A stretch of 64,000 bases of DNA. It comes from Owenia fusiformis. Lineage: Eukaryota; Annelida; Polychaeta; Sabellida; Oweniidae. Position 1 is the stretch's first letter; every line of letters begins with the position of its first letter. Positions 687 through 64,000 of this stretch are shown here, piece by piece. The notes under the pieces are model-generated. The model saw only the letters and a list, made by a program, of their open reading frames with translations. It did no database searches and was not told where the DNA came from. Both the position numbers and the translations under genes were made by a program. The stretch covers positions 4,207,169 to 4,271,168 of the forward strand of contig CAIIXF020000010.1 of NCBI GenBank assembly GCA_903813345.2, read 5' to 3'.

Positions 687-3600
687 GGTCTACACATGCC
701 TGGATTGGTCTAAATGACAAACGATGGGTTCAGATGTATGAGTGGGTCGACGGTCAACCAGTTCTGTACACCAAATGGAATGTAGGAGAACCCAACAACT
801 GGCGAGGGCGCCATGAAGAATGTGTCTTCATGTACAAAGATACGGGAGCAACACGGGTATAGTGATCCATGTTATTGACATTTCGATATGTCATAGTCTC
901 TTCTTGAAAGTGTTTTCTTCTAATTACCCAAATGCGAGTAGGTAGTTACCAGTTTCACCACCAGGTGGCTGATTCGGGTCAATTAACATGGCAGGTATAT
1001 AAGAAAGTTCCCTTAAGTGGGTCAATTTTCATATAACTCTTATGTGCCTAATACTTATACTAATGAAAATATGTCCAGTAAAGCAAAATATTATCTGTCT
1101 ACTAAAAGAAAAGATATTTCATTTTTTGTGATTTTATAGCATGGGGTCTATGGGGAATCTCCCCGAGCCCTAAGTCACATTTTCAAAGAAAATTAATTTT
1201 TCAACGTTGACAAACACTTTTTAAAACCACATTTCTAAATGTAATTTTACACGTAGATTTCAAATATGATATTACTTTGACTGAATTTTGAATTTTTAAT
1301 GACGTAAATCAAGATTATTTCTACTCGCATCTGGGTTATTAACCCATCATCAAGTTCTCGATTCATATAGTATAGTGTAGTGTAATGCAGGCTTGTTAGG
1401 CTATGCTTAGCTAGGCTAGGCTAGGCTAGGATGTTAGGCTAGGCTAGTCTAGTCTAGTATAGTCTATTATAATGTCGTATAGTATTCGTCATACCTTGCC
1501 CGTATGCTGTATATCATGTTTTGTTTTGTAGCATGGGCGTTGGAATGATGAGCTTTGTGACAGAAAATGGTCTACTGTTTGCCAGACGTCCAAGAAGGTT
1601 CTCCCACCTGGCCTAACTCTACCCCCAGAGCCTGGATGCATGCCAGTAAGACAATTCACATGCATATGGTGATCCAATGAAATCGCCCATTCGTCCGTCT
1701 ATTCATCCTTTTGTTTTGTTGCCTATTGTTTGTCTGTTATCCGGTCTGTTATCATGCCAGTTAGATTGTAGTCTCGCTTTAATTCCGTGTGACCTCGCTA
1801 AATGCAATACTTGTGTGATCGGTATCCTAATACTAGTATACTTGCGTTTTAGGGCTGGACACCATGGCGATGGTCCTGCTATAACTTCATATTATCCGGA
1901 AGCACGTGGGAAGAATCTTTAAGAAATTGCCAGGGTTTTGGTGGATCACTCATCCGTATCGATGATAGGTTTGTACTGACATTTTTTCATGTACGTAAAT
2001 TAAAAGTCGTAAAGAGCTTATAGAAAATTGTGTTCAGCCTTCATGATCATATCTAATTTTCATTATACAGTGCTGAGAACGCCTGGCTGTCAAGTAAGTT
2101 TGCCAGTAAGGAAGGGATGATGTTTTGGACAGATATGACTGACAAGGACAACCCAGGAACTTACATATGGAGTGATGGTAACCCAAACATACCATACACA
2201 CACTGGGGCCCCAATCAGCCAGGTAGGGAGCCATGGACATGTTTTCATCTAGTTTCCAAACCAAACTAGACCTTATGATTTTATATGAAGCAAAAATTGT
2301 TAAAGATTGTTTTTTAACAAAATCTATGACACATATTTTTAGACCTCTGCTTGAAAAAAATAAAATTAAGAGTGATGGCTTTGTGCTTTCCGACCTCACC
2401 ATGCTTTAATTTTCTATGACTACATGTACATGTATGTATGTTTTTGTTTTGCAATATCGTCGTTGATTGATATTTCTTTAAATGTTTGTAGATGACAGTA
2501 CGGGGAATTGCGTGGCTTTTTCTGGAGGTGCTCAGACAGGGCTTTGGTTTGACGATAGTTGTTCAAACAAGAACCCATCAGTGTGTGAAATTCAGAGGAC
2601 TGATTACACCACACCACCGCCTCCATCGACCCCTCTGTCCTCCTTACCATGTGCTGAGGGTTGGGTCAGCTACGGTGACAACTGTTTTCAGGTATAAGGA
2701 ACACACATATTGTAGAGTAATAGAAACTAGTATAGCCTAATGAGGCAAATACTAGTACTGAAAACATTTGCGAGTTCTAATGAAAATATGATTTTAGATT
2801 AACTGGAACCACAATGGCAACTTTCTCCTAACCTGGGACGAGGCTCTTGTGGACTGTAGATCCAAAGGAGGTGACTTGGCCAGCTTCCACAGTGAGGCAG
2901 AGTATACATTCATATGGAGGAACTACATGATGTAAGTTATCGTTACTTGTTAAGTTGTACTAATTAAGACGATGAGATAATTAATTGCCCTATTTTTACG
3001 ATCTTTACATCAGGTGAAACTGGTCACGCTTTTATCTTTGGCAATTTTTATTTAAATTAATGATGGTGGAGGGGTAAATGACAATATTTCACCCATTTTC
3101 ATTCAGTGGTGAAACAAACGGCAATTATTGGATAGGACTTAACACTAGAAGTGGAAAAGAGGGGCATAAATGGTCGGATGGAAGTCCAGTGACTTTCACA
3201 AAATGGGCGGACGGCGAACCTAACGATTATAACAATGCAGAGGACTGTACCGTTGCGCATGCTCGTGCCGGCAGATGGAACGACATCTGGTGTTGGACCG
3301 GTCGAAACTGGATCTGTAAAATGCACAAAAGTAAGTGACCCATGTTTTTCTCATGTATTTAGAGGGGACCACGATTCACATTATTGGATCGGTCTAAACA
3401 GTCGAGGCGGGGCCGGAAGCGGCTGGAAATGGAGTGACGGTAGCCCAGTCACGTACACCTTTTGGAACAACGGGGAACCGAATAACTACGAGGGTAAAGG
3501 AGAGGACTGTGTCGAGGCCTATATACGAGGGGGACGATGGAATGACCAGTATTGTAGTTTAACACGAACATGGGTGTGTAAGATACATAAGAGTAAGTAT

Positions 3601-6600
3601 GGACGGTTTGCTCACTTTATTCAATTCCACGCACGATTCAACTAACAATAGACATTTGAAAATGTAATCCAATGTAAATCCCATATCTTGATAATCATCA
3701 TTAGCGTGTGTTTTTATTAGGTCTCGGCACCCCCATTCCTACAACGACAGCGCCATCTCCAGGACCACGTAAGTAACACACACATCTATGATTTTCTCAA
3801 TACATCATTCTATCATTGATGAACATTGCTCATTTAACGCGTACGTTTATTTTATTATACTTATTTAATCTTTATTGTGGTTTTAATGAATTGTGTTTAT
3901 TAAATTTCTAATTATAAATGAGTTACTGTGATTCACGCGTGCGTGTACGTCAGTCATGATCGAGTTGCGTATTGCTTTAGCTGATTGTTTGCCAATGCAT
4001 TCTAATGTTATATTTTCAAAGCTGGAAGTTGCGCCCCTGACAACGACAGATGGCTTAGGTACAACGACAAGTGTTATTACTTCAGTAATCGCACAGAGCA
4101 ATTCTCCTGGTATAATGCTAGAAGATTCTGCCAGCAACAAGGCGCAGATCTTGTGTCTATACACGATATTCAAGAGAGTAACTTCATTTATTCACAGGTA
4201 TATAATTTGACATACTCAAAAGGCATTTCGTTTATATCACGCTGACATATTTTTGTGTTGTTATCATGATTGATTTCTTAATCTTACCCCTAGGTGATGA
4301 AAGGGTAGTTTTTGCATGCACTAAAATCGAATGAAGGAAAGGTTTTCAAAACTGACAATTTCAGCTTTCCAACGGTGTATCGGAACCTTAGTGCAGAAGT
4401 GGCCGTAATTTAAAAAGCGTGGATCTCTGTTCGCGAGTGGAGAAATACTATATGTGCGCGACAAAAGATTTCTCGTTCGCGACGTGAGAATCATGGTTCG
4501 AGCTCAAGGAACGTAGTTCGCCAGCTCAAAACTAATGTTCGCGTTGTTGGAAGCCTGTTACATGTACTTGCTTGGTTTTTGAGTCTTTCTTTTTTGCTTC
4601 TTTCCAATCACTCCTCTTGATATTGCCAAAACTATTTGGAGACGCCGGGAATTGAACCCGGGGCCTCTTACATGCGAAGCAAGCGCTCTACCGCTGAGCT
4701 ACGTCCCCATCTTACAACGAGACAATATGCACCAATATAAAAAATGATCTTCTCCATAGTCCTGGCCTTAAAAAATTGCCACTTATTTTGACTGGGATAA
4801 TGAATACCAGTAAGCTATATCTCTCCATATTTGGCAGGAAAATAGTTTCACACAGCTTTAGTGGTGAGAGTTATTCATCATTTCTAACCAAAGTAATATT
4901 ATACTTGTACATCTGTATATATTTTTCACATGAATTTTGCGTGACTCTAGTCTGACCCCCAAGGGCCGTATGTGAGCCATTGTGGGGTACTCAAAATAAG
5001 AGAGTTCCTTGACTTTGTGATCTCGCTGAAGCATTTTATTACAAAAAGTCAAATGAAAGCCATTTAAGAGTATCTTTTTTCTGGCTCAAGCATCGGAAAA
5101 TCCAAATGGTATGGGGATTCGCAGTAGTTTGGAAATTCGGAAAATACATGTTGCATCTTCTTTTTGATTTTTGCTCATCAAAATTCATAGTAGCCATTCA
5201 AACCAGAGACTTTAGAAATGAAAGGTTTAACCATCGATTTGATTTTTTGTAATCTTTTTTCAATTTTATGGAGTTGCTGTTTAACTGTTTTCCTTTTACA
5301 ACAATTGAATAAAATGCTTTCAGGCCCGGCCGTCCACCGGACAGAGTGGTATGTGGATAGGACTGAATGAATTGGATTCGAAAGATGGATGGAAGTAAGT
5401 ATTTCTTGCTCTCTGCAATTCAACATATTTTTCTTTACAAAAGTCGTCTTCTGTTGTTCCGATCGTTGACATAAAAGTTTATATTTCAAACCTAGAAAAT
5501 TTCAGATAACTTCAAAATTCCTAGAATTAGACAAATGTACATATTTTCACCTATTCATATAGTACAGTATAATGCCAGTTATAATAGAACCATTTTATTT
5601 GATCCAAATCCGGAATCATTGAGACCAATGATGTATCATATTGACTGTTTATATTCAGATGGTCGGATGGAACTCCTAACAACTTTCAAAATTGGGATGC
5701 CAATCAGCCGAACGACTTTGGTTTCCAACAAACATGCAGTATTCTAACCGTCAGAAGTGGTAATTTTTCATTTCATTTTCATGTTTTCTTAATTGGTTAG
5801 CATGTGGAAACATCATGACTTGCATGTTTTATTTTTAATATTTTGTCTTATGTTTTGTTTATTTTTCACATGTGTTTTTGTCTCATGTTTTGTTTATTAT
5901 ATGACTGTTTTATTTTAAACAATAAAAGACACAAAGTAATTATTACAGGAAAATGGAACGATGACCATTGTGACATTAGGTTTGGTTTGATATGTAAGAA
6001 GTACCCCGGTGGCACCCCCGCCCCACCCACTATCCCGCCCCCAAGACCTGGCAACTGTCCGACAGACTATATAGAGTTTGGAGATAAATGTTTTAAATTT
6101 TTTGGCTCCAAAACTCAGAGGTGGACATGGCAAGATGCAAGGAAGGAATGTCATGCAAATGGCAACAATTATGATCTTGCATCTATTTCGAACCCTCTTG
6201 AACAAGGTATCCTGCATGATTAACACACCGTTGTACGAATACCCTTTAAAGTTAATAGCGTTTAAGTAATGGCCATTCGATATATTTTGCTGCAAGTTTC
6301 TGATATTGTCTTTAAATCGTTTGAGCAGTGAAAATGTGATTTCCGATTTCCTTTTTACATCTGTACATTTACAACCAAAGGAGGTAGTAATCTGCAGAAA
6401 TTCTTTGTTCATCTTTCAATTAAAATACCTGACATTTTATAATTAATATCACATTTTAGCTTTCATCACGACCCAATTAAAGCTACAACCGCTGGGAGCA
6501 TACTGGACTGGCATGTGTAAATGTAGAATCAACCAGTTCACGTGGGTAGACAACTCGGAGGTCACATTTACAAACTGGAATAGAGGAGAACCAAATGGAG

Positions 6601-9600
6601 GAAATAGGGTAAATTTTGATTTAGTGCATTGTGCCTAATAATTTTTGAATATCCGTTAATCGAACATGTTGGACAATGGTCTCTGACTGTTACGCGGTAA
6701 AAACATGATACAAATATACATGTCATATTCCGCAACGAATATGGCATATTCACTTACTGTGTATGACAGATTCAGCTATGGTATATGGCATACTCACTAA
6801 CCAATGAGAACGCGATGCAGAAGTACGCATGCAGTTGTCAATTAAATCGATTGAACGGGCAAAAGTTTATATAAATTATTATATATATAATGATTACTGA
6901 ATCAACAGGTCAGTGCATTGAATATTTCAACTAATACAGAATAACATACACCAGTGGTACCTGTCTTGTTTGATGTTGTTTCATATGATATGTGTTACAC
7001 GCAAATACACACTTCAAAGGAAACATTATTACGCATAAATAAACGAACCTACGATACTTTCAGAAGTAATATCCAGCAATAACACGTAATAAACTTAGTC
7101 ATATATAAGTATTCGAAGCGCAAACAATATAGGCAGCCCAGCGTAGTTTTACATTTAGAGTCGATTCGACCAATCTAATCGAGGCTTTATGTATCGAGCT
7201 TTCACATGCGGTATATGGCATATTCCACAGGTAAGTATGACATATTCCGCAGGTGAGTATCGGGTATTCACTGAAATCAATGTATCACTAATACCGCACA
7301 ACCATGAATATATGCCACATTCCGCGTAACACTGACTTCATCAGTGAAACTAAATCATATGTTTCAAAGCATTTCTTGTAGAATAGTTAACGTTTTACGT
7401 GCATCCATCCACATTCAAATGAAATGGCAAGGAGTTATTAATGTTTATTTACAGGAAGAATGTGTCCACGTACTTGGGGCGAGATTTTTCGCTGGAAAAT
7501 GGAACGATGCTAGATGTGACGCAAATTTAGGCTACATCTGTATGACTCTAAAACGTGAGTGATCAGCGCATGTATACTAGATGATGTTTAAAACAAAATT
7601 AAAATAATCAAACACCTGTCTTTTCTAATACATGCCATTTGTGCTTCATATTAGAGACATCCATTCCGGTACCACCACCGACGCCCCCTAACCCATGCCC
7701 TAGTGGCTTCCAGAGCTACGGGAACTCTTGCTACAAGGTGTTAACGGCCCTCCAGTCGTGGACGAATGCGAGAGACGCCTGCAAGACAGAGAGTGCCCAT
7801 CTTACCTCAATCACCAGTCAGTACGAGCAGGCCTACATATACTTACTGATGAAGACGAGTGGTCTAACAGCCGATTCAGTTTGGATTGGTCTCAGTGACA
7901 AAAATGTGAGTATCGTCAAAAAGCATAAATTCCAATACAATAAACTGATAAAAGTTTTTTTCACGAGATCTGATATTGGGATTTTAGGAAAAAAACATGA
8001 ATTTATAAGGCAATTTTCTTGTTATTACAAGTTTATACTGCTCCTGTCTTCACTTCTGATTAGGGGGGGGCAGTCACGCGTTTTTATTACGCTTATTAAA
8101 ATGTTTATAGGTTCCTGGTACCTTTTTATGGGAGGATAACTGGCCAGTTGTGTACACAAGGTGGGACAAAGGACAACCATCTTTCACGGGCGGTGGTTGT
8201 GTTAGCATAAAACAAGATAGCCATTGGAAGGATACTTGGTGTCTAATGCAGCAACCAGCTATTTGCAAATTTACAACAGGTTATGTGTATTACATTTTAA
8301 TATAATGATGTTGTATTATGTCCTGTTATTCTGTAGAAGTTCAAAAATCAAAATTTACAGGCATATGTTCAGGTATTATTATCAACTAAAACTGTGGAAA
8401 TGAAACCCAAAGGTAGTCATAGAAAGAACATTAAAACCTCCATTTGATCTCATGTATTAGATTCTCAAATGACATTTATTAAGGTATAATTTTATTGAAT
8501 TGAGTACTACCAATACCATTTTGAAGCATGTGGTAACCTTAAGTTATTTTATCAAATTAATTAATTACTTTTTAAGGATCTTTATTATAAGTCTCTGTCA
8601 TCAATTGCTTTGGTCATCGTTTGTAATAATGACTTTGGAAGGGAAGGATTTTTTGCCACATGCATATCAATTTTCAGACCTAATAATTGAATTACAATGA
8701 TCTCGTTTCAGATTCGCCACCAGTACCTACCCAGCACCCACCTGGTCCTGGAATGTGCCCGGATGCAGACGAGGACCATGATTGGTTACATTTTAATGGA
8801 TATTGCTACTTCATATATCATGTGAGAGGTTTTACAACAAACATGTTTAAATATATTTTTCATATTAATTTATTTTCCACCATCTGAAGTAATACATGTA
8901 GTACATTAAAGAAATACAGCCCTGCACTTATGCAGTGATTCAATGGTTCATAATGCATTTTTATGTAACCACTAGAAGTGGTGCCATATTGTTGTTATAG
9001 TCTTCCACTGTTTAGTGGATGACGGTTGGCATTCAGTGGTTGGTGTTTGATGACTGTAGCAAATGCCAGGTGGTGACATTTGCATGTTAATGCATTTTTA
9101 AAGGTTTATCGAGCCCCCTATAACGGGAAAAAATAAAGATTTATTTTTTAAGCATCTCTGGTAAATTGTATAGAATATCAAATTAAATCTAAAGTCAATG
9201 GGAGCCCATTTACAGGTGTTCAGCTTTAAATCCACCATAAGTTTGGTAATCGGAATTTCTGCGAGACTGTATTCATATTTTGTTTCAATTAATACACTAA
9301 AAAATCTTGCTGATGAATCTGTTCACGTCACCAAACATAGGCAGGCTTTAACTCATGGTCTGATAGATGAGCCCAGTTTTTGAAACCATTGCAAGGAAAT
9401 AAACATTTTCACAACATTTTAGGAACCAGATAAAAACTTTGCCGAGGCTGACTTTGAATGCCATACTAGAAATGCTGAGCTTGCATCTGTACATAGCAAA
9501 GAAGAAGACAATTTCATCGTTGCTCATTTGAGAGAATATGCAAGACATAAAGTTTACATTGGCTTCTGGAGAGGACTAACAGGTTGGTCTATTGTTAGTT

Positions 9601-11583
9601 ATATATAAAAAATCCATAATGTAATTTTGTATTAGTTATACATGATTTCACTTTGATTTCGTTCCGTGTTATTGTTACAGACAATTAAACAGTATTTTTG
9701 TCTAACATCATTCCTTTTCATACCTTTTTCTAAAATTCAAGAGTTCATAACTAGTCGACTAGATGCGAGTAGAAATAATCTTGATTTACGTCATTAAGTA
9801 TTCAAAATTCAATCAAAGTGATGTCATATTTGAAATCTACCTGTAAAAGTACATTTATCACTGCATGTTTCAGTCCAAATATCCCATCTTCTGTTGTGGA
9901 TTTTTTCTTAGCTATATATGCTCCGTATATTCTATAGCATATGTATTCATCTTGTTCATCTTGCTATAGAGGGCTTTGTTTGGAAAGATGGAAGTCCAGT
10001 TCAGTTTACAAACTGGGGAAAGAATGCCCCGTCAAATCAGACCAACACCGGCAATGCTGACGACGACAAGAATTGTGTTGAATATAATCCAACCGTGGAA
10101 AAATGGTTCGATCAAGTTTGCTGGGCAAGACGAGGATATGTTTGTAAAACTAAAGCATGTAAGTTAAGACAGTATTATTTTAAAATATTGATGAATAGTT
10201 CTAGAAATCGGGTTCATGATAAAATATAAACGTGGTTTTAAATTTGATATTTTGTCACGCGACCCTACATTGAAGCTCAACATGTACATTCGTTGAAGTT
10301 CTATATTTATACAAAATATATTTATGAAACGGGAAATTAAGACACTCAAGATACTGAAAATATTTTTTATATCATTTGAAATAAAAAGCATGCGTCGGCC
10401 GGGAATCGAACCCGGATCTAATGCTTGGAAGGCATCAATGCTAACCTTTACACCACCGACGCTTCGTGAAAGCTAACGTGAAATATACATATTTGTTTAA
10501 AAGAGTCTGATCAGCTGTTACTCCATTGAGCAGTATATTCATTGTAACATTATGTTAATCTAAGAAATGCAGATTCTTGGGAAAGGAACATAATATGAAT
10601 GCAGCACAATTAAGGTTAGAGAGAAACAGACTTGCAAACTTGATGTGTTGATTATTGATTTGTATTTTCAGTATACAACACAGGTGATACAACCACCAAA
10701 TCTTCTGCGCTTTTCACAACAAAGTATACTAAAATCACATTACCACCTTGGAGAACGACCCGTCAAGGCTGGACGTGGCCAATTGTTTGGACAACGCAAG
10801 GACAAACTGCATTACCAATAACACAAGGTACATGTATGATAGTGTCAATTGCAGTCTACCATGGCTTCACTGGTCAATACTGGTATACGTATAACCTCAA
10901 CTGAGAAATTTCAAAAAGCTGTCCTTTTACCATTTAAAATTCCATCAATTCAAATATGAGCTGCTTCGTCAAATTAAAATTAAGCAACTCCGATAGACGC
11001 TGGGTGTTTAGGAGTCATTGACAGATGAACTTCGCAAAAGTTTAAAAAAGTCCTTTGCTCTCTCACTATGCTGTCATTACAACAATTGATTAAGGAATCC
11101 CTAACTTGTGGTTTGTGATATATCACTCAATGATGTTAACTTGCTTTCTGGTGAATACCCTTTCAGCAACATAGACACCAAAGGATGATATATTTTCGAA
11201 ATTGAGATTTGTATAATGATAATGATATTTCTATAATCGGATCAGAGGTTTGTGCTCTTAGATGTTTCTTTAGCTGCACCTGAAATTCGCGCTCTGGGGT
11301 ATGTGCCCCATTTTGACCGGCTTGTGCTTAAATATATATTTATATTTTTATTTACATTCCAGGTCCACCAACAAAAAGCTCGTCTATCGGGGGTATAATC
11401 GGGGGTGTAGTAGCAGGTGTGGTAGTAATATGCATAATAGCAGTAGCTGTGATATTTTACAACAAAAGAAAATCTGATAGGCCACTTCTGAAACCAGACA
11501 GTAGCTTTGAGAATCCTGGGTATTCAGTTACATCCGGGACAGTTAATATGGGCAACAAAGATGGAAGTGAAACGTACACATAA
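687..11583 (+). CDS. Mannose-receptor-like multi-C-type-lectin transmembrane protein, 5'-incomplete
   Basis: Exons: 687-856, 1532-1645, 1853-1968, 2071-2222, 2492-2691, 2798-2931, then either 3107-3330 or 3363-3592, 3721-3768, 4022-4197, 5324-5394, 5659-5759, 5949-6206, 6460-6608, 7455-7554, 7655-7905, 8111-8279, 8712-8821, 9423-9582, 9970-10158, 10672-10827, 11363-11583. All have GT-AG borders and matching phases. They encode seven C-type lectin domains (the first lacks its N-terminal half) separated by Pro/Thr linkers. Ca2+/sugar motifs are EPN in domains 1, 3 and 5, QPD in 2, QPN in 4; domains 6 and 7 have QPS and APS and may not bind sugar. A Thr-rich stalk, a Gly/Val/Ile transmembrane helix and a short tail with FENPGY follow. 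By family knowledge this is an endocytic or pattern-recognition receptor (MRC1/PLA2R-like); NPxY is an internalisation signal. Signal peptide and any ricin or fibronectin-II domains are outside the window. Confidence 0.9.
931..1331. repeat. MITE-like repeat with ATGCGAGTAG inverted ends
   Basis: This 400-base intronic repeat starts with ATGCGAGTAG and ends with its reverse complement. A near-complete copy lies at 53213-53612, and one end recurs at 9761-9856 in reverse orientation. It has no coding potential. It is a non-autonomous DNA element by its shape; the superfamily is not identifiable. Confidence 0.7.
1370..1490. repeat. Imperfect TAGGC/TAGTC microsatellite
   Basis: Degenerate tandem copies of TAGGC and TAGTC lie in a receptor intron. 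The array is short and irregular, so it is a simple repeat and not telomeric. Confidence 0.75.
3107..3330 (+). CDS. Alternative exon A: second half of lectin domain 3
   Basis: This exon starts after an AG at 3105-3106 and ends at a GTAAGT donor. It completes an Ile codon split with exon 2798-2931 and encodes the WIGLN, WSDGSPV, GEPND and GRWND blocks of a mannose-type lectin fold, ending in CKMHK. It ends one base into a codon that 3721-3768 completes as Ser. Exon 3363-3592 has the same entry and exit phases and the same domain half. Reading on past the donor gives a stop within three codons. Confidence 0.88.
3363..3592 (+). CDS. Alternative exon B: second half of lectin domain 3
   Basis: This exon begins after AG at 3361-3362 and ends at GTAAGT. 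It is a diverged tandem copy of exon 3107-3330, sharing YWIGLN, KWSDGSPV, GEPN, GEDC and GRWND but with different loop residues and two extra codons. It enters one base short of a codon and leaves one base into a codon, exactly like exon A. If spliced after exon A the frame shifts and TAA at 3395-3397 ends translation. It must therefore be used instead of A, not with it. Confidence 0.87.
4637..4708 (-). tRNA. tRNA-Ala (CGC)
   Basis: The minus strand reads as a 72-base cloverleaf. The acceptor stem GGGGACG pairs with CGTCTCC (one G-T pair), the D arm is GTAGCTCAGCGGTAGAGC, the anticodon loop is TTCGCAT giving CGC, and the T arm holds GGTTCAATTCC. A TTTT terminator follows within a few bases on the minus strand. 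The gene sits antisense in a receptor intron and looks intact, with good A and B boxes. No CCA is encoded, as expected for a eukaryotic gene. Confidence 0.92.
6689..7330. repeat. MITE-like element with GTTACGCGG ends
   Basis: This 642-base intronic block starts GTTACGCGG and ends with the exact reverse complement. ACT lies outside both ends and may be a 3-base target duplication. Inside are several degenerate copies of a GGCATATTCC-type motif in both orientations. There is no coding sequence. Confidence 0.6.
8935..9110. repeat. Dispersed repeat fragment with GTGACA-type motifs
   Basis: This stretch resembles 15465-15610 (minor-groove of shared words such as AGTGGT, TGGCG and ATTTGCATTTTAATGC) and, more loosely, the edges of the repeat at 45620-46600. 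It is probably a decayed copy of one dispersed family. The match was made by eye and is weak. Confidence 0.35.
10391..10462 (-). tRNA. tRNA-Gly (TCC)
   Basis: The minus strand gives a 72-base cloverleaf beginning GCGTCGGTGGTGTAAAGG. The anticodon loop contains TTCCAAG with anticodon TCC, the T arm has GGTTCGATTCC, and the acceptor ends CCGACGC with discriminator A. A TTTTT terminator follows directly on the minus strand. It lies antisense in a receptor intron and has no visible defect. Confidence 0.93.
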
Positions 11584-24398: not shown

Positions 24399-27300
24399 TT
24401 AATAGTCGAATGTGCATAGTGTTAAAAAAGCACTAGTAACCAACAGTGAAATACATGAAAAGGTTGTTCCTGCCGAACTGGTGCATTCATCATTCATGCC
24501 TGGATATTTCTTGTCCCTGATATTATCACAATGCGTCTTAGAGTCGCCAAGACATGCAGCGAATTTCATAACGTGGAAGATATAGTTTTGCTCGTGAGTC
24601 GTGTGGAAGAGGTGCGCCATTGGTCCACGGGCATATATCCCAACGTCTGTCAAATCGTGGCCTGTTTCTTTCATTGGTATGGCAGCCGGGTATTTGAAAT
24701 TTCTGTTTTCTGTAACATAATGATATCAATCAATCTACATTAACTAATGAAGTTATCAAATGTGATGTCGACCTATTCAAAAGCTCTCGAGAAAACTGAA
24801 TCAAGGGTTTGCATTTGCAGAGAGCGATACGCTTACTTAGATCATCATTCGTTAGGTTTGTCCTCGGTGCGCTGTCATTAAAGTTGGGTCCTTCTGCATA
24901 AGCAATGACGGTGTATGGTTTCCCGTCCACTGTTGAAAAAGCACCACCCCCTGATGTATGGGACGAATCGTCTGTGTAATCAGTGTTACCTGGCGAATAT
25001 AAATTCTAAATATGATTTGTCTCGCTTGGAATATCATTAGTTTCTCATGATGCAGTCTTTAGAATAAGATATGAACATGTTCTCTTTAAAATGTGTAGTT
25101 AAACCTCCCTTTTGAGATGAGCAATGCAGCCATTGAACATGGACCATTACCTGTGACCGGGTTTCCTCTCTTGGCGTATGAGCCTGTAATTATAGGTGTT
25201 GAGTGGTCCGAAGTGACAATGATCAGCGTGTCCTCCTCGTCTGTCACATCCATACCGACCTTCACTGACTTGTCAAACTCAATGGCTTCTTCAAACGCTT
25301 TATGAGCCACTGTGTCGTGGTGGCCATGGTCAATTCTAGCACCTAAAATCAAAGATCATAGAGGCAAGGGTACAAGACAAGCCAGGAAAGCATACCGTTC
25401 ACTGCCATGGATGCATTACACTGTAGCCGAGTTCATTTGGTTCTGAATAGAAAAAACAAATAAATATGAACAGTTTTTGATTCTGATCTAAATTACCCAA
25501 AATAATGTCATTATTGTTTTTTGGTTAACTCTCACTCAAAAGCTCATCAGTCAACTTTATTGCAATTCGTAAACGTGGTTAAGGACCCTTCGTATTTGAT
25601 CAGACATTAAAACAAATCATTTTAAGGCACACATTCACCAGAATCTACTTTTGACACATTTTGAAAGTTCCTTCCAACATTTGACACACTATCTTTTTCT
25701 GCCATATTGATCAATCCATGGACCCGAGGTCAATAAGTAATAGTCACGGTATGTGACAAATGATATCCACTCATACCCGGTGTCCAGAGAACACTTCTCA
25801 TTAATTACCTTCTACGAATAAGAAGAACCCTTTGTCACTACGCTGGAGCCTTTGTATTGCTTTTCTAGTCATCTGCGTCAGTGTCGGCTCTCCTGCAGCA
25901 TCTGTGTCGTTTGTATACGTCATGTGACTGTAGTCAAATGATCCTGCAAGTTCATAGTTAACATATTTAGATATAATGTTTCCGTTCTCGGTTTCTATAG
26001 GGTCAGAAAATTACAATTTCCAAAGTTTTTGAGGTACTTACTACTTACTTAAAGATTAACAAGATTAACGAAAGTTACATTTAAAGTTGTGATTGTCATA
26101 GAATATTAGATGCTTTTACTTGTCCTAGTTAGTCACGAGTGCTTATATATTTTATTGAGAATCACTTTTGATAACCTACCAAACCAGTGATCTAAAGTGT
26201 TAGGATCAATAGCATCAAACTGTTCCTTATTCCAAACAAATTCAGCATTCAGACCTCGGTCAATCTTCTCTTTAACCCATTCCTCGTGAATTTTGCGCCC
26301 ATCAAGGCGTCGTCCTGTTCGGTCAGGATACTCGGGATCTGCGGTGATGTTGGGGTATAGATGGCGGCGACCACCACCCATCAGAACCTACATATTAAGA
26401 GGCAGATTCAATGATCAGAATACAAGTTGCCAACTTGATCAGACATATTTACCAAGCTCAAAATATTGTCCTTTTCGGATCTAGAACGTTTAATTCCCAA
26501 TTGTTGTATCTTAGAACAACCAAAATGTGTTATTGCGTTTTAATGTTTCATTTGGCCAATAGGTTGCAGCACGAGACAAATAGTTTCGAGACTATTGTAC
26601 CAAGATGGAGATTTCTAAATAGTGAAATATATTTGAGAGTAAAACCATATTTTATGTAGTTTATTAGATATACATGGACATAAGTTATTACACTAATGTC
26701 TATTGATCTGTCCCGAATCACTTACCGTGATATCTTTCCCAACGGGTCCCATAATGTGTGAAGCGATGTCAATGCAACCCTTTGTTTTCGCATCATCTGT
26801 CATTGTCGAATCATCCTCCCACTCTCTTTCCGGGACGTGCGCATAAAGAGGCCCTGGTGAAGCATGCGTGATTCTTGCAGTGGTCACTATACCAGTGGCC
26901 ATCCCTTTGGAAATAAAGCTCACTTACACTCCCCTCCAAAGTTTGGTAACCTCAGCTCCTTCATTAAACTACGTTTTAAAGTTACGTGTTACATGTTTTA
27001 TTTACATAACCTGCGAGGAAAATACTTGTAATATTGATGGAAATGTATCTTGACTTCATTTCAGATGCCTCCAAATTTTCCCAAATTTTTCCTCAATTAC
27101 GATAGGTCGAAAATTGATGATAAATCTGATGAATGTTTGAAAATCGACATGTCATATGAGTAATATTTAGGTTTCTTTTTCATTGAATCCCGAACGAACA
27201 TGAAAATCACACCTGCGTTTTGAGCCAATTCAAGAATACATGTTGGACTCCTCTCTGCGATGTTGGTGCAGTCCCCCCTGGGGGCTCGTCCGTCTGTGCC

Positions 27301-30300: not shown

Positions 30301-32821
30301 ACTTTTAGACTTGTAGAATTTGTTAAATCGGTTTCAAGCCCAGCCCCTGTTTAGTTCCAAAATTGTTGATACATTGATAAGAAAATGATTTTCTTTGCCT
30401 TGTTGTACATCGTCTATTCTAATATAGCCGATGTCCAAAAATATTGTACCTTTGAGTAACCGACGTTTGGGAAGTCATCGTAGACCAACGTTTCTTCAGA
30501 TCCCAACTTGCCATTCTGTTGTCCTTTGAAGATTCTAGACAGGGTAAGACTAGTTGGGCCATGTCCGTCAGAGAGAAAGAAAATTATGTTCTTTGCCCTG
30601 TTGTAGTTATTCTTTCTTCCCAATGCTCTCTCTAGCTCTGCCTGGGCTTTGTCTATCCAGAACTGCGGCTCTGCAATATAATGTTAAAGGGTTAAAACTT
30701 ATTGAATGACCTCTTATTCTTATTCACTTGATCGTATTGGGGTATTGAGCTCGAGAGCGTTATATTAAGCCAGTACATGTATTATCCCATGATATTACTT
30801 CAACGCTATTTTAACAACATTATTCGATTTGTCAGTTTCCTCGACCGACGTGGAGAGCGTGACTTAATCCTCCTCCTTCTTCTGCTGGAGATACCTCTCT
30901 ACCAGCCGTGGCTTTGATATCATAAATCACCGTGTCCAATGGCATTTAGATTTAGACACAAAATGATGCACCATCTTCATTTCTATGTGATCAATCCATA
31001 TAGGGTTTTTTCGAAACTCGTAAATGTTTTTGGCCATTTTGTCAATGACGAATATTTTTTTTTTTTATAATTTTTTTATTTCAAAGAATAAGCATGTTAA
31101 AGCAATTGCAAAAAACAATTACAGTACAGTTACATGGTAAACCTACATTTAACAATTTTACAATACAGTACAGTGGTTAAATATTTCGTCTTAAGAGACG
31201 TTTTATACCATTGGCATTTTTTTATTTATTTAAAGGAAAAAATCATCAGTTTCATTTGTTTAATTTTGTTTCCATGATTTTCCACTTATCGCCTCTGCCA
31301 ACCCGTTTGTCCATAATAAAATATTCCTTCACATTACTTATAAAACCTTTAAGTGTTGGTTTTAGCATAGAATATTTGCACAAATAAACATACCTTTTAA
31401 AAATACATAGCATATTATTTAAGATGATTGTCTTCTCATTTACACTCTCAGGTCCTATCAATACATTTTGTTTAGTGCATAGCAATGTGAGCTCTAAAGG
31501 AAGCCATTGTTTAATGTCATTTAATACGGCACTTACAATAGTACATTCATACAGAAGATGGCAAATCGTTTCAGGATTTGCTTTACAAAAAGTGCAAATG
31601 TTTGACTCTACGAGTCCACACATTTTTAGGTAATATGTATTAGTTGCTAAAAATCTGTGAAGGACTTTATAAGTGAAGGATGATAATTTTATTAGTATAT
31701 CTAAAATACGAAATTAATTTTTTGATCAAAGTTTCAAATCCGGGAGACCCGAACAGGAGACCAGATCAGAAAAATATCTTCCCCAGGCCTTATCAATACT
31801 TTTTGAACTCTCTCATAGCAATATGCGATATATGCTAGCTATTTCTAACTATTTATTAGTATAGGCTAATACAAGCTAAGGGTCATGGTAACCAAATGTA
31901 AACATGAGATGACGAAAGATATGTAAGTTATTCCAATATAGCAAGAGCAAAGTACGCAGGATGCGTTTATATTGTATTATTCAATATCAAAATTCGTATT
32001 CTATGATTAAAATCCGAATTTCTTTAAACCGTTAAATTTACTTTTTATAATTAGCTCAGTAGCAAACAGATAGAGATCACCATGCGCTTATACATAAGCT
32101 ATCGAGGTTCTTATATGAGTACCTGTGCAAGATCTTCCATTATTGATGAGCTTTGATAATATTCTTCTTTATCGAGTCGAAGACGAGATAAGGAAACATT
32201 ATCAAACGAGTCAAGGCAATATCTTGCATGGGGTTAAGATGGCTGTATCTTTATTAGTCATATGAGAAAATTCAAGCTAACGTAATAAAACAGAACTGAG
32301 CTCATGTATGATATGTAAATAGGATAATAAATCGAAATATTACATTCAACCAACAGCTAAATGTTATAAAGAAAACCCACATAGCTTTGCATTAGATATG
32401 AATAATAATTCAAACAAATCACGCCTTCTATAAACTGTGAACAAATTCAATATTTCACCCGGTCGTTATTCTTGGATACAATACCTGGTAAACCGGATAT
32501 AGGAATTGAATTTGAATATGTCTGAGGTTTTGGCAAGGAAAAGGTTATTTTGTATTTCCGATTTTGTGTTTCAAGATCAGAAATTCATCTTAGCACAGAT
32601 CCCTTTTAAGTATTCAATTCATATGCAAACATGTCGAAGTCAATATGTTCGTTACGATCGCACGTTAATCATAAATGCGTCAGGGCTCATCAACCCTATA
32701 ATGTTGAAGCAAGTTTTTACTTACCCTTTTCTTCTTCGTTGACTCTCCCGAGTGTTTGCCCAGCTACTGACAGTAGAACTGCCGAAACGAAGAGCAACTG
32801 ACGAGCACACCAAGCAGTCAT
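24399..32821 (-). CDS. Alkaline phosphatase, GPI-anchored type, copy 1
   Basis: Exons: 32821-32725, 30670-30450, 27387-27213, 26904-26726, 26387-26180, 25943-25809, 25342-25151, 24989-24837, 24709-24399. Borders are AG/GT and phases join into 556 residues. A signal peptide (MTAWCARQLLFVSAVLLSVA) leads. Catalytic landmarks are FFLSDGHG (metal Asp), SDSSVTATA (nucleophile Ser), VTTARITHASP (His/Ser metal ligands, Arg), FFLFVEGARIDHGHH (Glu, Asp and His ligands), VTSDHST (Asp-His) and ETGHDLTDVGIYARGP (Zn His). The C terminus has a Ser-Ser-Ala-Gly stretch before a hydrophobic tail, as for a GPI signal. The family hydrolyses phosphate monoesters outside the cell. VTSDHST replaces the usual VTADHSH, a small oddity. 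Close tandem paralogue at 38189-49581. Confidence 0.95.
26926..27160. repeat. Fragment of the ACACTCCCC-ended repeat family
   Basis: It starts ACACTCCCCTCCAAAGTTTG and runs parallel to 35610-35908 and 53815-54060. Only one end is present. It lies in intron 3 of phosphatase copy 1. Confidence 0.65.
27914..28150 (+). pseudogene. tRNA-like sequence (SINE head or tRNA pseudogene) split by a MITE
   Basis: Before the insert it reads TGGTGTAGCGGTAGAATTCT (A-box region) and an anticodon-arm-like CTCGTTTAGCACGCGGG; after the insert, GGGTTCGAATCCCGC (B box and T arm). Joined across the MITE this resembles a Gly/Ala-type tRNA, but the acceptor ends do not pair convincingly. A tRNA-derived SINE head is the likelier reading. 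Confidence 0.6.
27961..28125. mobile_element. CCGG-flanked MITE, copy 2
   Basis: This 165-base element has ends TGTAAAAG / CTTTTACA flanked by CCGG on both sides. It matches the copy at 19998-20152 along its length, with about ten extra bases. It inserted just before the B box of the tRNA-like sequence. Confidence 0.88.
28161..29410. mobile_element. Inner inverted-repeat element with 67-base arms
   Basis: Arms at 28161-28227 and 29344-29410 are inverted and match at 66 of 67 positions by eye, starting GGTAACGCGGCGCAGTCAAG. Copies of an AACGCGGCGCAG-like word recur near 28580, 28612 and 28642. No transposase and no clear target duplication are visible, so it may be an inner part of the surrounding TTAA element. 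Confidence 0.7.
31050..31725 (-). mobile_element. LINE 3' fragment (L1/Tx1-like zinc-finger end)
   Basis: Minus-strand translation from about 31720 to the stop at 31252 reads YKVLHRFLATNTYYLKMCGL, then CTFCKANPETICHLLYEC, the RVT-type zinc-finger tail of many LINE proteins. A plus-strand T-run at about 31051-31064 corresponds to a 3' poly(A) tail. The 5' part, including the polymerase, is missing. It lies in intron 1 of phosphatase copy 1. Confidence 0.75.
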
Positions 32822-33746: not shown

Positions 33747-35249
33747 CAGGGTGTCAAATAAGTCCCGTCCCCCCCCCTACAGCCAAAACAGGAAAAGATG
33801 GTACATAGTGTGATATACCATTGGAAAGATCGTCCAAAGTTAAGTTGATTGGCATATATCTGACACTTGTCAATCAATGTCACAAATTGCTACATTGTTG
33901 CAATTAAGGTGCCCGTATATATAAAAAGGCGGCAATTCAGCAGATTTTTGAAAACCAGGCATCAGTAATGCCATTCAAGAAAAGTCTGTCAAGATGGCAA
34001 CATATGTATCTGATAGTGAGATACAACAATTTGTAGATAGAGTAAGATGTGTTGCATACAGAGAGGCAATGGACAGTGGTGCAGACTTTATTTGTAAGAA
34101 ATGGATAGCGAAGAAGATTAAAAGATCTGACAAGTTTGTTCAAAGATGCTGGAAAAAGCCGTATGATGAACTTGTTACACAATCAAGATGTGGTGCTCCC
34201 GAAGTCCTTTCTCCTGCATCAAAGGAAGTTATATGGGATGGATCAGCTAAAAAGAGAAAGAGTTGTACTGAAGTGGCCAGAGATATCAAGATGAAGCGTG
34301 GCAAGGTGGTGTCAAGACAATTGGTGCACAATTATCGTGTTCGCGAAGGCCTTAAGGCATGGCACATTATTCCTAGACCATTGAAGAATGAATCCCAAAA
34401 AGCAGATCGCCTTTGGTTTATTAACTTTTTGAGAGATTGGGATGAGGATGACTTCCTCCATTTGGCTCCTTCTGATGAGTTTTTTGTGTATACAATAAGA
34501 AAGCCAAACCATCAGAATGACCGTGTATGGGCTAAACGGCGTGATGATTGTAGTGATTTGCTAGTGCGAGAACAGTTGGCATGGCCCCAATGCATAGGGA
34601 TTTTCCTCTTATTTACGGCAAAGAAGATGATGTGGATTATTAAAGATGATGGCTAGAAATGGACCGGGGATTACTTCCGTGATACAGTTTTAAGGGGGAG
34701 GGTAATACCCTTTCTAAGAAATCCTCAGAATGTGATTGAGCCATCCCAAGTGACTTTGTTACATGATAAGGCCCCTTGTATGAAGGCATTGGCTACACAA
34801 GATCTCCTCAAGCAGTCAAAAATTGACTTTTTTGGGAATGATGACTATCCTAGTAATAGTCCGGACTGTAATGCGTGCGAACATATGGGATCCATAGTTA
34901 AGGATAGAACAGAGGCACTTATGGATGAGGAACCCATAGAGAACAGAAATTCAAAGGATGCTTTATTAAAAAACTTGAAGAAAGTACTAAAAAGTCTTGA
35001 AAATGCACATGAACTTTTTGACGTTTTGCTTAAGTCATATCCGTCTCGTTTTGACGCCATAAAAGCTGCTGGAGGGGGACATACCAACTATTAAAGAAAT
35101 CATCAGAATAAAGGTAAATGTCATCTAAACTACTTGAGAGTTGGTGAGTTAATGTAACTTTGGATGATCTTTCCAATGGTATATCACACTATGTACCATC
35201 TTTTCCTGTTTTGGCTGTAGGGGGGGGACGGGACTTATTTGACACCCTG
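33747..35249 (+). mobile_element. Tc1/mariner-type DNA transposon
   Basis: This 1.5-kb element has inverted ends of about 95-100 bases beginning CAGGGTGTCAAATAAGTCCC and is flanked by TA on both sides, the usual target of the IS630-Tc1-mariner superfamily. It contains one transposase frame (separate entry). The ends are still very similar, suggesting modest age. Confidence 0.93.
33994..35094 (+). pseudogene. Mariner/Tc1 transposase, DD37E-type, one in-frame stop
   Basis: The frame starts MATYVSDSEIQQFVDRVRCV and runs to TAA at 35092-35094, 366 codons interrupted once by TAG at 34654-34656. An N-terminal helix-turn-helix region is followed by three catalytic acids: Asp in PSDEFFVYTI, Asp in LHDKAPCMKA, and Glu in SPDCNACEHMGS. 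I count 37 residues between the second Asp and the Glu, the DD37E spacing. Translation in the same frame continues across the stop, so the defect is a single nonsense codon. The protein cuts and pastes the element in the nucleus when intact. Confidence 0.88.
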
Positions 35250-38188: not shown

Positions 38189-41100
38189 CTAATAGTCAAA
38201 TGTACACAGTGTCAGAGCACTAGCAATCAACAGTGAAATATATGGAAAGGTTGTTCCTGCCGAACTGGTGCATTCATCATTCATGCCTGGATATTTCTTG
38301 TCCCTGATATTATCACAATGCGTCTTAGAGTCGCCAAGACATGCAGCGAATTTCATAACGTGGAAGATATAGTTTTGCTCGTGAGTCGTGTGGAAGAGGT
38401 GCGCCATTGGTCCACGGGCATAGATACCAACATCTGTCAAATCGTGGCCTGTTTCTTTCATTGGTATCGCAGATGGATATTTGAAATTTCGGTTTTCTGT
38501 AACATATTATCATTAAGTCTACAATCATATTATCAATGAGTGTACATACAATATTTTTCGGAGCATTCAATGACTCATTCGAGGTTTAATCTCACTTTAT
38601 GTTGTCATAAAGGATCGTAATCAGAAAATTAAGGGATTGTCAAAAACTTTTTGAAGTAATTCACGATAGATATTTAATTATGTCTTAATCTCGCCGAATT
38701 CAAGATTCTCGGGAAAACTAAAGAAGAAACACACTGAAACGAAACTACACTTAGAACAAGATTTGTAGAAGCATCCGATATGATAATTTTATGAACATTA
38801 TTTTTTTATTAAGCGATTCGCTTACTTAGATCATCATTTGTTAGGTTTGGCCTCGGTGCGCTGTCATTAAAGTTAGGTCCTTCTGCATAAGCGATGACGG
38901 TGTATGGTTTCTTGTCCACTGATGATAAAGCACCACCTCCTGATGTATGCGAAGAATCGTCTGTGTAGTCGGTGTTCCCTAGTGAATATAACACTTAATA
39001 AAATACTCACTTTGGATTACCCTTAGTTTCTCATGATATCGCTCATTATTTTAATATTGTGACATATGCATTTATATTGCTCATCACTTTTTTAAAATGT
39101 ACTGGTGCACGATTGATGATGGGACTTTAATTCATACATACGCATGCGCACTGTTTACAGAAGTCCGTGGACGTGTAATATTTTGACCAACAGAGATCCA
39201 TGTAGTCATTGAAAATGGACCATTACCTGTGACCGGGTTTCCTCTCTTTGCGTATGAGCCGGTGATTATAGGTGTTGAGTGGTCAGAAGTGACAATAATC
39301 AGCGTGTCCTTCTCGTCTGTCATATCCATACCGACCTTCACTGCCTTGTCAAATTCAAAAGCCTCCTCGAGAGCTTTTTGAGCCAGCGTGTCGTGGTGGC
39401 CATGGTCAATTCTGGCACCTAAAATCAGACCAAAGAAGCAAAATACAAGACGAGCTGAGGGAAAGAGAGCATTATCGTCAGCTAGCTAACATACGCATTT
39501 CTGTATAACAATTAAATACGGCTCTTTAATCTATGGTTTTGCGTCGCAAAGTGCTCTGGAATAACTTGACAAACTCCATTATAGAGCAGCCCTAATAGTT
39601 TCTGGGGCGATTCATGGTACGTGTTAGCAAAAATAATAATAGTCTAAATTGGAAAACCCTGGCGGAGAGAAGAGAATATTAAAAACAAAATATTCACATG
39701 TTCAAAGTCCGATCAAATTTGACCCCCTCTTATGTAGTTTCTATATTCGAAAAACTGTCAAATCCTGGTGCCAAAAGGGAGCTCCGCTCCAGAATAGAAT
39801 ATGTTTTACCCGCGAGAGCGACTATGAAATACTTAAATTCACCAGCCATAAAGCCTATCTCCATTTGGCCTTATCTTTCAACTGAAATAAAAATATCGCC
39901 AACCCTATCGATCTTTAAGAAAAACTATAATAAGAAATACACATTTCATAAAAAGAATATTTTAACAAGAAGTCTTAACTAAAAAGGTCTTTTGAAACTA
40001 AACTTAATAAAATTAGAAGCGATCTTGCCCTTAAAAGTGACTTTTTAGACATAATTTTAACAACATCATAGATCCTTCTTGCCCCTATGGCCACCGAGAT
40101 CAAGATAAGATTCATCTTTTACTCGACTGCCCTCTAACCGCCATACATAGAAATGATTACATACAGAACATCCTGAAGTTAGATCTTGATATTATGTGCT
40201 ATTTTGGAAAAGCCAGAAAGCAAAAAATAGAATTTATACTTTATGGAGAAGAAAATTTAAATAGTGAACTGAATACAAAATGCCTTCAACTATCTTCAAA
40301 TTATATTGACAATATCTTAGAACGACCCTTCTCATTTCGCATCATCATCTCTCACTAGCATTCATATACATCATCACGGGCAAGACCTGGTGGACGGCTG
40401 TGTCCGTTGCAATCTTACACACTCAAGTGATTTATACTATGTTTTTCTCTTTCTATAGGGGGGCCCATAATGCTATATTTTCCTAAGTGACATCTATATT
40501 ATTGAGTAGAGTGAATGTTTATTCTAAATAGGGAATTCGAAGTGGCCAGACGTACATTCAGCAGTGGTAAGCATATTTTGATTTACATGCCCGAGCAAGG
40601 GGCGCCCGAGCAAGGGGCTAAAATAAAAGGCTTTGAGGGCCTAGAGATATAATGCCCGAGCAAGGGGCTAAAATAAAAGGCTTTGAGGGCCTAGAGATAT
40701 AAATGCCCGAGCAAGGGGCTAAAAATAAAAGGCTTTGAGAGCCTAGATATAAATGCCCGAGCAAGGGGCTAAAATAAAAGGCTTTGAGGGCTTAGATATA
40801 AATGCCCGAGCAAGGGGCGCCCGAGCAAGGGGCTAAAATAAAAGGCTCCAAGGGCCTGAAATATATGCGCAAGCAGGGGGCAAAAAAATATGAACCATAA
40901 GGGGTAATGAATAAAAGGCCTTGAGAGCCTAGAGATACAGAGATATATGCCAGAGCAAGGGGCTATTAAATATAACTATGAGACAATATAAGAGAAGTTT
41001 TCTGAGAGGCAAATATTTGACAGAAACAAAGAAAAATAGAACATTGATGACATGAAAAATCTTGATAACATGGCCTTAAAATGAACACTGGAAATTCAAC

Positions 41101-44100: not shown

Positions 44101-47100
44101 GATTCCAAGTGGAGTAATTGATGTAAAAAAGGAATAGGTCATCGATGTGAGTTAGAGTCAAGGTTTCCTTTGATACCCCAGATCGAACATGAAAATCACA
44201 CCTGCGTTTTTAGCTAGTTCTAGAATACACGTTGGGCTCCTCTCTGCGATGTTGGTGCAGTCCCCCCTTGGGGCTCGTCCGTCTGTGCCAATCACCCCAT
44301 AGTTGCTCTTCACTCCACACAGGCAGGCTGTTGCAGTTACTGATGAATCGCTGATCTGGTGGTTGACACTATACGTCTATAACACATTTTATTTGGTAGA
44401 GATTAAAAGGTGGATTGGATCTAGTGGATTGGATTCATGTAAAAGGTGGATTGGATCGAGAATCTTCAAAATATGGAATTTCTTATGAGATTTTTTCTGT
44501 TGATTTCCCTCTGCAGTATTACAGGTCCCTTTTGAGAAATCAGAACAAGGCAATGACAAATACATACTCCAATTAGTTCATAGTACTCTTAAGTATTTAA
44601 CTGCTTTTCCTTGTAAAACAACTTTTGTAAGACATCATAAATATAAATCTGTATTTAAAAGCTGTCATTCAAATTTATGTGTGAATGTTTGCAAAACATT
44701 TCTGCTATGTTCAGTTTGGATTGAAAACAGATGATATGGATCTTCAAACCAGTCTGCCTTATGATTAATGAAGTCTAAAATTACTCTTGGAATGAAAATA
44801 AGATTGTGTATTAGAGCAGGTACTAGGTCACCCTTCTAGCCCACCCATGCAAAATAATATTACCTCTATTATTTGACATTGTGGAAGTGAGGAGAGCAAC
44901 AATCTTATTAGAGGGAGATCAATAGAACTTTTTAAGGAAAATCCATATTTTGAAGATTCCCAATCCAATCCACCTTTTACATGAATCCAATCCACTCGAT
45001 CCAATCCACCTTTTAATCTTTACCTTTTATTTACGTAACTTTATTTGAAGTTTTCGTAAGATTCGCCGGTGCGATGAAGAGAGTGATATGGTGTCTACAA
45101 AACCTCTAAAATACTAGAACAGCAATTCCAGGGAGTCTTGAAAATCTCATCTTGGACGGAGCATGTGTCAGCTAATAAAATTAGAAAATCCGTTCACTGG
45201 TATTTGAGTTTTTTTACGAAAACTTGTTGGCATTTGAAATACAGCTGCCATTTTGGAAATTTCTTCTTAAACAGAGCTCCTATATGTCTCTAAGTAGCCG
45301 CATAAAAAATTTGAAAATCGTGTCAGGGTTTCCGTTTTTTGACCACCTGTATTTGACTAATCAAAGATTACATATTTAATGAAAATGGCGACCATTCTTA
45401 TCGCCCGGGAACACGAACGGACGGACAGACGAACGAACGGACGACTTTCCTATATCCCCCTCGAACTTAGTTCGGTTGGATAATTACAACACAAAGTTTG
45501 CGTAAAGAGACTTTAGGCCATAAGAACTAGAGTCTTTGTTTTGCGTCCACTTGTTTGCCCGATTTTGAGTAAATCAGAAAAAACAAACACATCCAAATAG
45601 CAATCACAAGGCATTAACATGACAAAATGTCACCACCTAGTTGCTCACAATATTATGAGTTCAAACTTAATATAAGTCAGATTTGAATTTCTGAGAACTT
45701 GTAAAGTCAAATTTGAACTTCTGAAAAGATGTAGATGATTTTGAAAAAAAAATTTGGTCAATTTGAAGCAAGTTGAAAACAGACCTTTTTGACCTTTTTT
45801 GACCTTGAGAAGGTCATTAAAGGTCAAATGTCAAATCTAAAGTCAGATTTGAATTTCTGAGAACATGTAGATGATTTTGGAAAAAAAATTAGTCAATTTG
45901 AAGCAAGTTGAAAAAAGACCTTTTTGACCTTTTTTGACCTTGAGAAGGTCAAATGTCAAATCTAAAGTCAAATCTAAAGTCATATTTGAATTTCTGAGAA
46001 CATGTAGAATGTAGATGATTTTGAAAAAAAATTTGAAGCAAGATGAAAAAATACCTTTTTGACCTTTTTTGACATTGAGAAGGTCATTGAAGGTCAAATG
46101 TCAAAATCATCTACATGTTCTCAGAAATTCAAATCTGACTTTAGATTTGACATTTGACCTTCAAATCTGACTTTAGATTTGACATTTGACCTTCAATGAC
46201 CTTCTCAAGGTCAAAAAAGGTCAAAAAGGTCTGTTTTCAACTTGCTTCAAAAAAATTTTCAAAATCATCTACATGTTCTCAGAAATTCAAATCTGACTTT
46301 AGATTTGACATTTGACCTTCTCAAGGTCAAAAAAGGTCTGTTTTCAACTTGCTTCAAATTGACTAAAATTTTTTTTCAAAATCAGATTTGAACTTCTGAG
46401 AACATGTAGATGATTTAGAAAAAAATTGAAGTCAGTCTAAACAGTATTTGTTGAGTTATAGGAAGTTGTAAGAAATTGTTACAGACGCCGGACGCCAACC
46501 GCCGGACGCCAACCGCCGGACGCCAACCACCAACCGCCGGACGCCAACCGCCGTCGCAAAAAAAACGGAGACCATAACAATATGTCACCACTTTTGGTGG
46601 TGACATAACAAGGGTCTGAAAGTACCATCGCGTTTCGTTCAATCAGAATCAGACGAAACGGCGGGTAATTCGATGAGCGTCAAAAATTGATTACTTTGGC
46701 ATACATTGTTTATTTTCTTTTTTACCCTTGAATGATAGCTATATTTTTAAATATACTATATAAAATGTATAGATATGTGTTTGTAATCACTACAAATTGG
46801 TATGTCATCCTTTTTATTCCCGGGTTTTTATGCCCTTGAAATGTATTCATCACAAGTTTGTGTTTTTCTTGAGTTTGTGTTTGTTTTCCTTGTTCCCTTG
46901 CATGATTTGGATTTTGCCAGGACGCAAAACAAAGAATCTACTTCTTATGGCCTTATACTAAAAGATGAGAATGCATACCGATACACTATATCGATTGTGT
47001 GGATGTGTCTATCCATAGACTACACTCTACACTACTGCTATATTTGTATTTACCTACGGCGAGGGCGTTTATGGCAGTATTATTGTGGATAATTTACAAA

Positions 47101-63045: not shown

Positions 63046-64000
63046 GGCCTAAGTAAGATTGTGCCATGATCACAAGGATTGTACCAAATACACACAGCAG
63101 TGGCTGAATGCAAAGGGAGCAAAGGGTACTATGTGAGGGAAAGAAAACTGAAATAAATCAGATTTTTTATCCTTTTACAAAGGATTGGTATCGATATGGC
63201 GAACTGAATTCAAAATTGTTTTTCTCTCAAACCAATTATTGAAAAAGCACTGTCCTTTACATGTATGTAATGGTCACTGGTTGAAAACAATCTGAAGCAG
63301 AATATATTATATTATATATACTAGATAATAGCATATACATTTTTTATAGCATATACATTTTCTTTGACCTCTCAATATTATAGTTGTACAAAGGAAAGTT
63401 TGGTTCATTTAACAAAAAGTATTCAAAAAATTAAAACAAAAACCACCAAAATATATTAAAGTAAACATTTTATTCATTAACAAGATTCTTTTTTTATAAC
63501 CAAACTTTCCCTTATACAGTTACAATATTGTGAGACCTAAACATTTGTACATGTATATGTCATTTTGTACAGATAGATGTTCCATTTCAGACCATCGAGT
63601 GTTAATTTTAGGAAACAACACCCAAAAAGAATGATCATAACGCAATGCATTGAGTCTTTGGCTTCAATTCTTATCACACATTGCAAAATATTTTTCACAA
63701 AATCATTTAAAAGATACAAAATATTATTGTATAACTGTATGCAGTTGCATGAAATAGTGTGGCCTAATTGGCTGGAATTGGACATACCTTGCCTGGCTAG
63801 CTACAGTATTTATGAATCAGATTTGACAATTTGCAATTTGATAGTAGTTGCACTATATCGTTTTATAATCTAATGAAACTAACGATCATATATAATTATT
63901 ACATGTACATACATGTAATGTATTTATTATTTGTAAAATATATCTCTTACAATCATACTATACAATAAACATGCCTAAGTTTCAGGCCTATGATTTAAAA
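63046..64000. other. AT-rich sequence, no gene seen
   Basis: No exon or repeat end is convincing. An AATAAA occurs near 63964. Small frames here are chance. Confidence 0.5.

Follow-up and report, generated by a model that had tools for sequence, protein, structure and literature searches.

In a 64,000-nucleotide stretch of Owenia fusiformis DNA (contig CAIIXF020000010.1), hereafter the window, a gene for a predicted receptor of the mannose receptor family carries two adjacent, tandemly duplicated exons, A and B, both of which code for the C-terminal half of the same C-type lectin domain; this half bears the Ca2+/sugar site. We consider it highly probable that a tandem exon duplication has here turned into a mutually exclusive pair, in which joint use is prevented mainly by crowding and secondly by the reading frame. 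The exon at 2798-2931 would be spliced to A or to B, and whichever was chosen would then be joined to the exon at 3721-3768, so that the choice would swap the Ca2+/sugar half of a single domain and leave the remainder of the receptor constant. Across the 32-nt gap the 5' splice site of exon A and the branch and 3' splice sites of exon B would be unable to act together. The frame would form the second barrier, given that joining at the main acceptor, retention of the gap or skipping of both exons is predicted to lead to an early stop. Mutually exclusive use appears well supported by the anatomy of the pair and by the signs of selection on it, and we infer that its enforcement by the short gap is steric.

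The gene model (687-11583, plus strand) comprises 21 exons, was built by hand from splice sites and was checked by translation (Table 1). A single open frame runs through it whichever copy is chosen, with 1089 codons for exon A and 1091 for exon B, the stop included. The 20 introns of the exon-A model measure 100-1126 nt; the presence of introns and a GC content of 36% suggest eukaryotic, and most likely animal, DNA. Seven C-type lectin domains (Pfam PF00059) are visible, the first of them only as its C-terminal half in the model. The 5' end of the gene lies outside the window, to the left of the model, so the "lectin domain 3" to which an earlier, sequence-only reading had assigned the pair holds as the third visible domain and not as a count from the start of the gene. 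Tandem lectin domains, a transmembrane segment (hydropathy 3.08 across 19 residues) and a short tail place the predicted protein in the mannose receptor family, which is also known for N-terminal cysteine-rich and fibronectin type II domains. The best PDB matches are the yolk-sac IgY receptor, PLA2R, DEC-205 (Lymphocyte antigen 75), MRC1 and MRC2. We take the FENPGY of the tail to be an endocytic motif. The linker exon downstream of the pair enters and leaves in phase 1, and its omission from the form with exon A leaves the frame open, so it may be optional in its own right.

Table 1. Features of the receptor gene and of the exon pair (positions in the window; domains are numbered as visible in the model).
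Feature	Position	Strand	Remarks
Upstream exons (687-856, 1532-1645, 1853-1968, 2071-2222, 2492-2691)	687-2691	+	One open frame, GT-AG introns; C-terminal half of domain 1, whole domain 2 and start of domain 3; Pfam PF00059 in 2 stretches, E 4.1e-30
Constant exon (exit phase 2), coding for most of the N-terminal half of domain 3	2798-2931	+	
Exon A, 224 nt, entry phase 2, exit phase 1	3107-3330	+	By itself matches Pfam PF00059 at E 2.9e-12
Gap between A and B, 32 nt, GT..AG ends	3331-3362	+	
Exon B, 230 nt, entry phase 2, exit phase 1	3363-3592	+	By itself matches Pfam PF00059 at E 3.3e-14
Second AG of the tandem acceptor (TTTAGAG) at exon B	3363-3364	+	Exon start 3365
Shared linker exon downstream of the pair, 48 nt, entry and exit phase 1	3721-3768	+	
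Exons for domains 4 to 7 and a Thr-rich linker	4022-10827	+	Pfam PF00059, E 1.6e-24, 7e-18, 8.1e-21 and 1.1e-17 for domains 4, 5, 6 and 7
Last exon, coding for the transmembrane segment and the short FENPGY-bearing tail	11363-11583	+	Stop TAA 11581-11583

Other elements were also recorded in and around the receptor gene. Its introns hold two tRNA genes in antisense orientation, tRNA-Ala (CGC) at 4637-4708 and tRNA-Gly (TCC) at 10391-10462, both on the minus strand. A 97-nt inverted repeat (1236-1332 and 9761-9857, 93% complementary), perhaps a mobile element, is found in two of its introns. Elsewhere in the window, four alkaline phosphatase-like frames on the minus strand (24402-25355, 39135-39485, 47514-47783) apparently derive from more than one gene copy. 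There are also a long endonuclease/reverse transcriptase frame (60592-63048, minus), a Tc3-like transposase piece under the Pfam cut-off (33952-34653, plus), a zf-RVT piece (31255-31713, minus) and two tandem repeat arrays (40604-40818, with a unit of ~50 nt, and 45702-46105, with a unit of ~135 nt).

The exon coordinates, phases and splice dinucleotides proposed by the sequence-only reading, as well as the 32-nt gap, were all reproduced. The translations of A and B are similar well above chance, with a local BLOSUM62 score of 249 (maximum 70 in 1000 shuffles) and a tblastn E of 3.5e-28. Among the domain halves of the protein they are nearest to each other by identity, at 58%, followed by B with domain 1 at 49%; the tree of these halves is weak, with FastTree joining A and B at 0.665 and IQ-TREE not joining them. 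When 21 exons were compared with their flanking introns, only this exon had a copy there, at an E cut-off of 0.05 that gives low power for the shortest exons. After splicing, the Pfam match of the domain reaches 7.2e-21 with A and 1.3e-22 with B. The features used to recognize mutually exclusive exons were taken from PMC5740500. Adjacent internal position, similar sequence and length, the same frame, GT-AG boundaries and freedom from in-frame stops were all found; the paper also asks for junction reads that run from each exon past the other, and for none that connect the two except where this changes the frame. Exclusion enforced by the frame would require every form of joint inclusion to shift it, which holds for acceptor 3363, where joining to A leads to the stop previously predicted (TAA, 3395-3397), and fails for acceptor 3365, where A and B are joined in frame and 1165 codons run to the normal stop. 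The frame alone thus does not forbid double inclusion, and exclusion described as frame-enforced applies to the first acceptor only. With the frame a barrier in part, most of the exclusion must fall to the short gap. The shift expected upon skipping of both exons was confirmed, with a stop at 4038-4040, and retention of the gap leads to a stop at 3336-3338.

These frame relations bear on two other explanations. Both exons could sometimes be included via acceptor 3365, and the open A-B frame would allow a protein with a repeated half-domain. However, this would require a 34-nt intron, one third of the shortest other intron of the model, and would add an extra sugar-site half after a complete domain, with no N-terminal half of its own; we regard it as highly improbable. 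Alternatively, the pair may double as an off switch, whereby skipping of both exons or retention of the gap lowers receptor levels through the early stops located above. Such by-products should arise from any frame-shifting exon pair, though, and no sign of regulation was seen, which makes this explanation unlikely.

The splice sites of the pair were scored with matrices built from the remaining sites of the same gene, 19 donors and 20 acceptors. Donor scores were 8.04 for A and 5.92 for B (others -1.7 to 10.01) and acceptor scores 0.42 for A and 3.68 for B (others -4.82 to 13.05), with 1.79 for acceptor 3365. These matrices are weak and give high scores to decoys too, e.g., 8.8 to an AG within exon A (start 3241), 7.76 and 6.47 to the GTs after 3013 and after 3354, and 5.91 to a GT after 3493 inside B. 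Within the gap and immediately upstream of it, the most branch-point-like A that has a usable spacing is A3338 (GTGAC), a motif match only, which lies 8 nt past the last base of exon A and 25 nt before the first base of exon B. The better motif, CTCAT (A3353), is 10 nt from exon B, which we judge to be too close. Any branch point within the gap would lie under the limit that vertebrate papers give for joint use, a distance of ~50 nt from the 5' splice site to the branch point (PMC7969005, PMC5740500). Human introns of 43, 49 and 56 nt are spliced (PMC4463651), and some ciliates have introns of ~25 nt (PMC5014332). The limits are vertebrate figures and some ciliates splice introns this short, so that we infer, rather than observe, a steric limit of this kind in this species. 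On these terms the earlier argument that the gap is probably too short to be spliced holds: it measures 32 nt, and no other intron of the model is shorter than 100 nt. RNA folding of 3240-3440 revealed nothing unusual (z -0.38; 69 of 200 shuffles were at least as stable).

By their sequence divergence, both copies look constrained. Exons A and B share 43 of 74 aligned residues (58%), a level of identity at which they are not alleles, while 14 of 16 fourfold-degenerate sites differ. Differences at codon positions 1, 2 and 3 affect 24, 21 and 48 of the 74 codons, respectively; Ka is 0.40 (NG86) and Ks was not computable. In a simple Jukes-Cantor simulation that took exon A for the ancestral sequence, with 5000 runs per distance, a selection-free copy reached the observed identity in 83% of runs at 0.2 substitutions/site, 12% at 0.3 and 0.4% at 0.4, and in 0 of 5000 runs at each of 0.5, 0.75 and 1.0. 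The near saturation of the fourfold sites, counted at 16 sites in one short exon pair, points to the larger distances; at 0.5 substitutions/site or more, 3 to 5% of the selection-free copies stayed free of stops. The identity of 58%, the divergence at fourfold sites and the lack of stops thus suggest that both copies have probably been maintained by selection over a long time. A pseudo-exon was considered and rejected on the comparison of substitutions between A and B. The possibility that one copy alone is used, the other being a relic never or hardly spliced in, finds some support in the acceptor of exon A, which is among the weaker ones (3 of the 20 others score lower). Nevertheless, amino acids, motifs, frame and splice sites have been retained in both copies despite the near-saturated fourfold sites, and the simulated copies at the larger distances behaved otherwise in both identity and freedom from stops, which renders a relic distinctly unlikely. 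An assembly artefact or collapsed paralogues would hardly be credible, since there is one shared set of flanking exons and a gap with GT..AG ends separates the copies.

Returning to the proposed mutually exclusive pair, its two versions can be compared around the sugar site. EPN, a Glu two residues before a Cys, and WND together are the mark of mannose-type sites. All three are present in both A and B, in agreement with the sequence-only reading as to EPN and WND, and they occur together in visible domains 1, 3 (both versions) and 5 and not in 2, 4, 6 and 7. Judged by sequence, both isoforms therefore have a C-type lectin domain with a mannose-type Ca2+ site. A and B differ by one residue in the length of each of two loops, and substitutions flank both motifs, e.g., Ile-Trp versus Gln-Tyr following WND. 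A difference in ligand preference between the two forms is plausible, as both keep the Ca2+-site motifs and differ around them. DC-SIGN entries are within the best 60 of 196 PDB matches for B (1sl5, E 7.1e-15) and absent from the best 60 of 173 for A, while the GalNAc lectin CEL-I (4wqq) matches A (1.4e-17) better than B (9.2e-14); this differing ranking may be a weak hint of different specificity. More tentatively, and with rather less than even confidence, we propose that an endocytic receptor of the mannose-receptor type shifts its sugar specificity via a regulated choice between the exons, in a ratio set by cell type or infection; nothing but the Ca2+/sugar half of one lectin domain would be exchanged, as a lectin counterpart of the half-domain swap in Dscam. 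Should both forms be produced and differ in the sugars they bind, a single gene would present two recognition faces without gene duplication. AlphaFold predictions of the half-domain from each exon alone were uninformative (mean pLDDT 43.0 for A and 41.4 for B). A contig scan returned nine loci from Flavobacterium that are 40-50% identical to a portion of the domain, but these are bacterial and silent on splicing, and no match was found in the viral contigs scanned. A short DNA pattern matching only the two exons was discarded, as 15 of 100 shuffles did likewise.

Like the Owenia receptor, the vertebrate receptors MRC1, MRC2, PLA2R and DEC-205 have lectin domains in tandem, a single transmembrane segment and a short tail, and we know of no exclusive exon pair in their genes. 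A switch of this kind in C-type lectins or mannose receptors was not found in a search of one open-access library; the novelty assumed by the sequence-only reading stands after this search, which does not amount to proof. In the available text of PMC9021376, PMC12758981, PMC7016707, PMC13428168, PMC12737323, PMC5343826, PMC6752684 and PMC12246121 no exclusive pair in a C-type lectin domain or a mannose receptor is described. A crab transcriptome yielded 25 C-type lectins and one exclusive-exon event, which may fall in a lectin gene, as the accessible text does not name the gene (PMC9021376). The Owenia pair thus looks like an ordinary case of mutually exclusive exons, in what may be a protein family new for such pairs.

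Regarding mechanism, the closest case is that of exons 4a/4b of OGDH, which are closely spaced and exclusive (PMC7969005); the same mechanism is likely here. In OGDH the branch points were mapped, and in human they are separated from the 5' splice site by 25-41 nt, whereas in the Owenia pair the whole intron would be 32 nt, the branch point is a motif match and the protein is of a different kind. Alpha-tropomyosin is an earlier such case, cited together with OGDH (PMC7969005). As a case of splicing the Owenia pair would be extreme, with exons only 32 nt apart. Among invertebrate immune proteins, the molluscan BgTEP2 and CfTEP are likewise varied by tandem exclusive exons; they are thioester proteins and not lectins, have 12 and 6 such exons, and come with expression data (PMC7016707). 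Finally, Dscam is a surface receptor with a proposed immune role, whose exons 4 and 6 encode the N-terminal halves of Ig2 and Ig3 (PMC6851185). In the arthropod Dscam clusters 4 and 6, tandem alternative exons swap half of an extracellular binding domain, as the Owenia pair would do. The Dscam clusters concern the N-terminal half of Ig domains, with 26 and 81 variants in Penaeus monodon (PMC6851185), while the Owenia pair concerns the C-terminal half of a C-type lectin domain, with two copies at 32-nt spacing. Provided that both Owenia forms are produced and differ in the sugars they bind, half-domain swapping would reach from Ig domains to C-type lectin domains.
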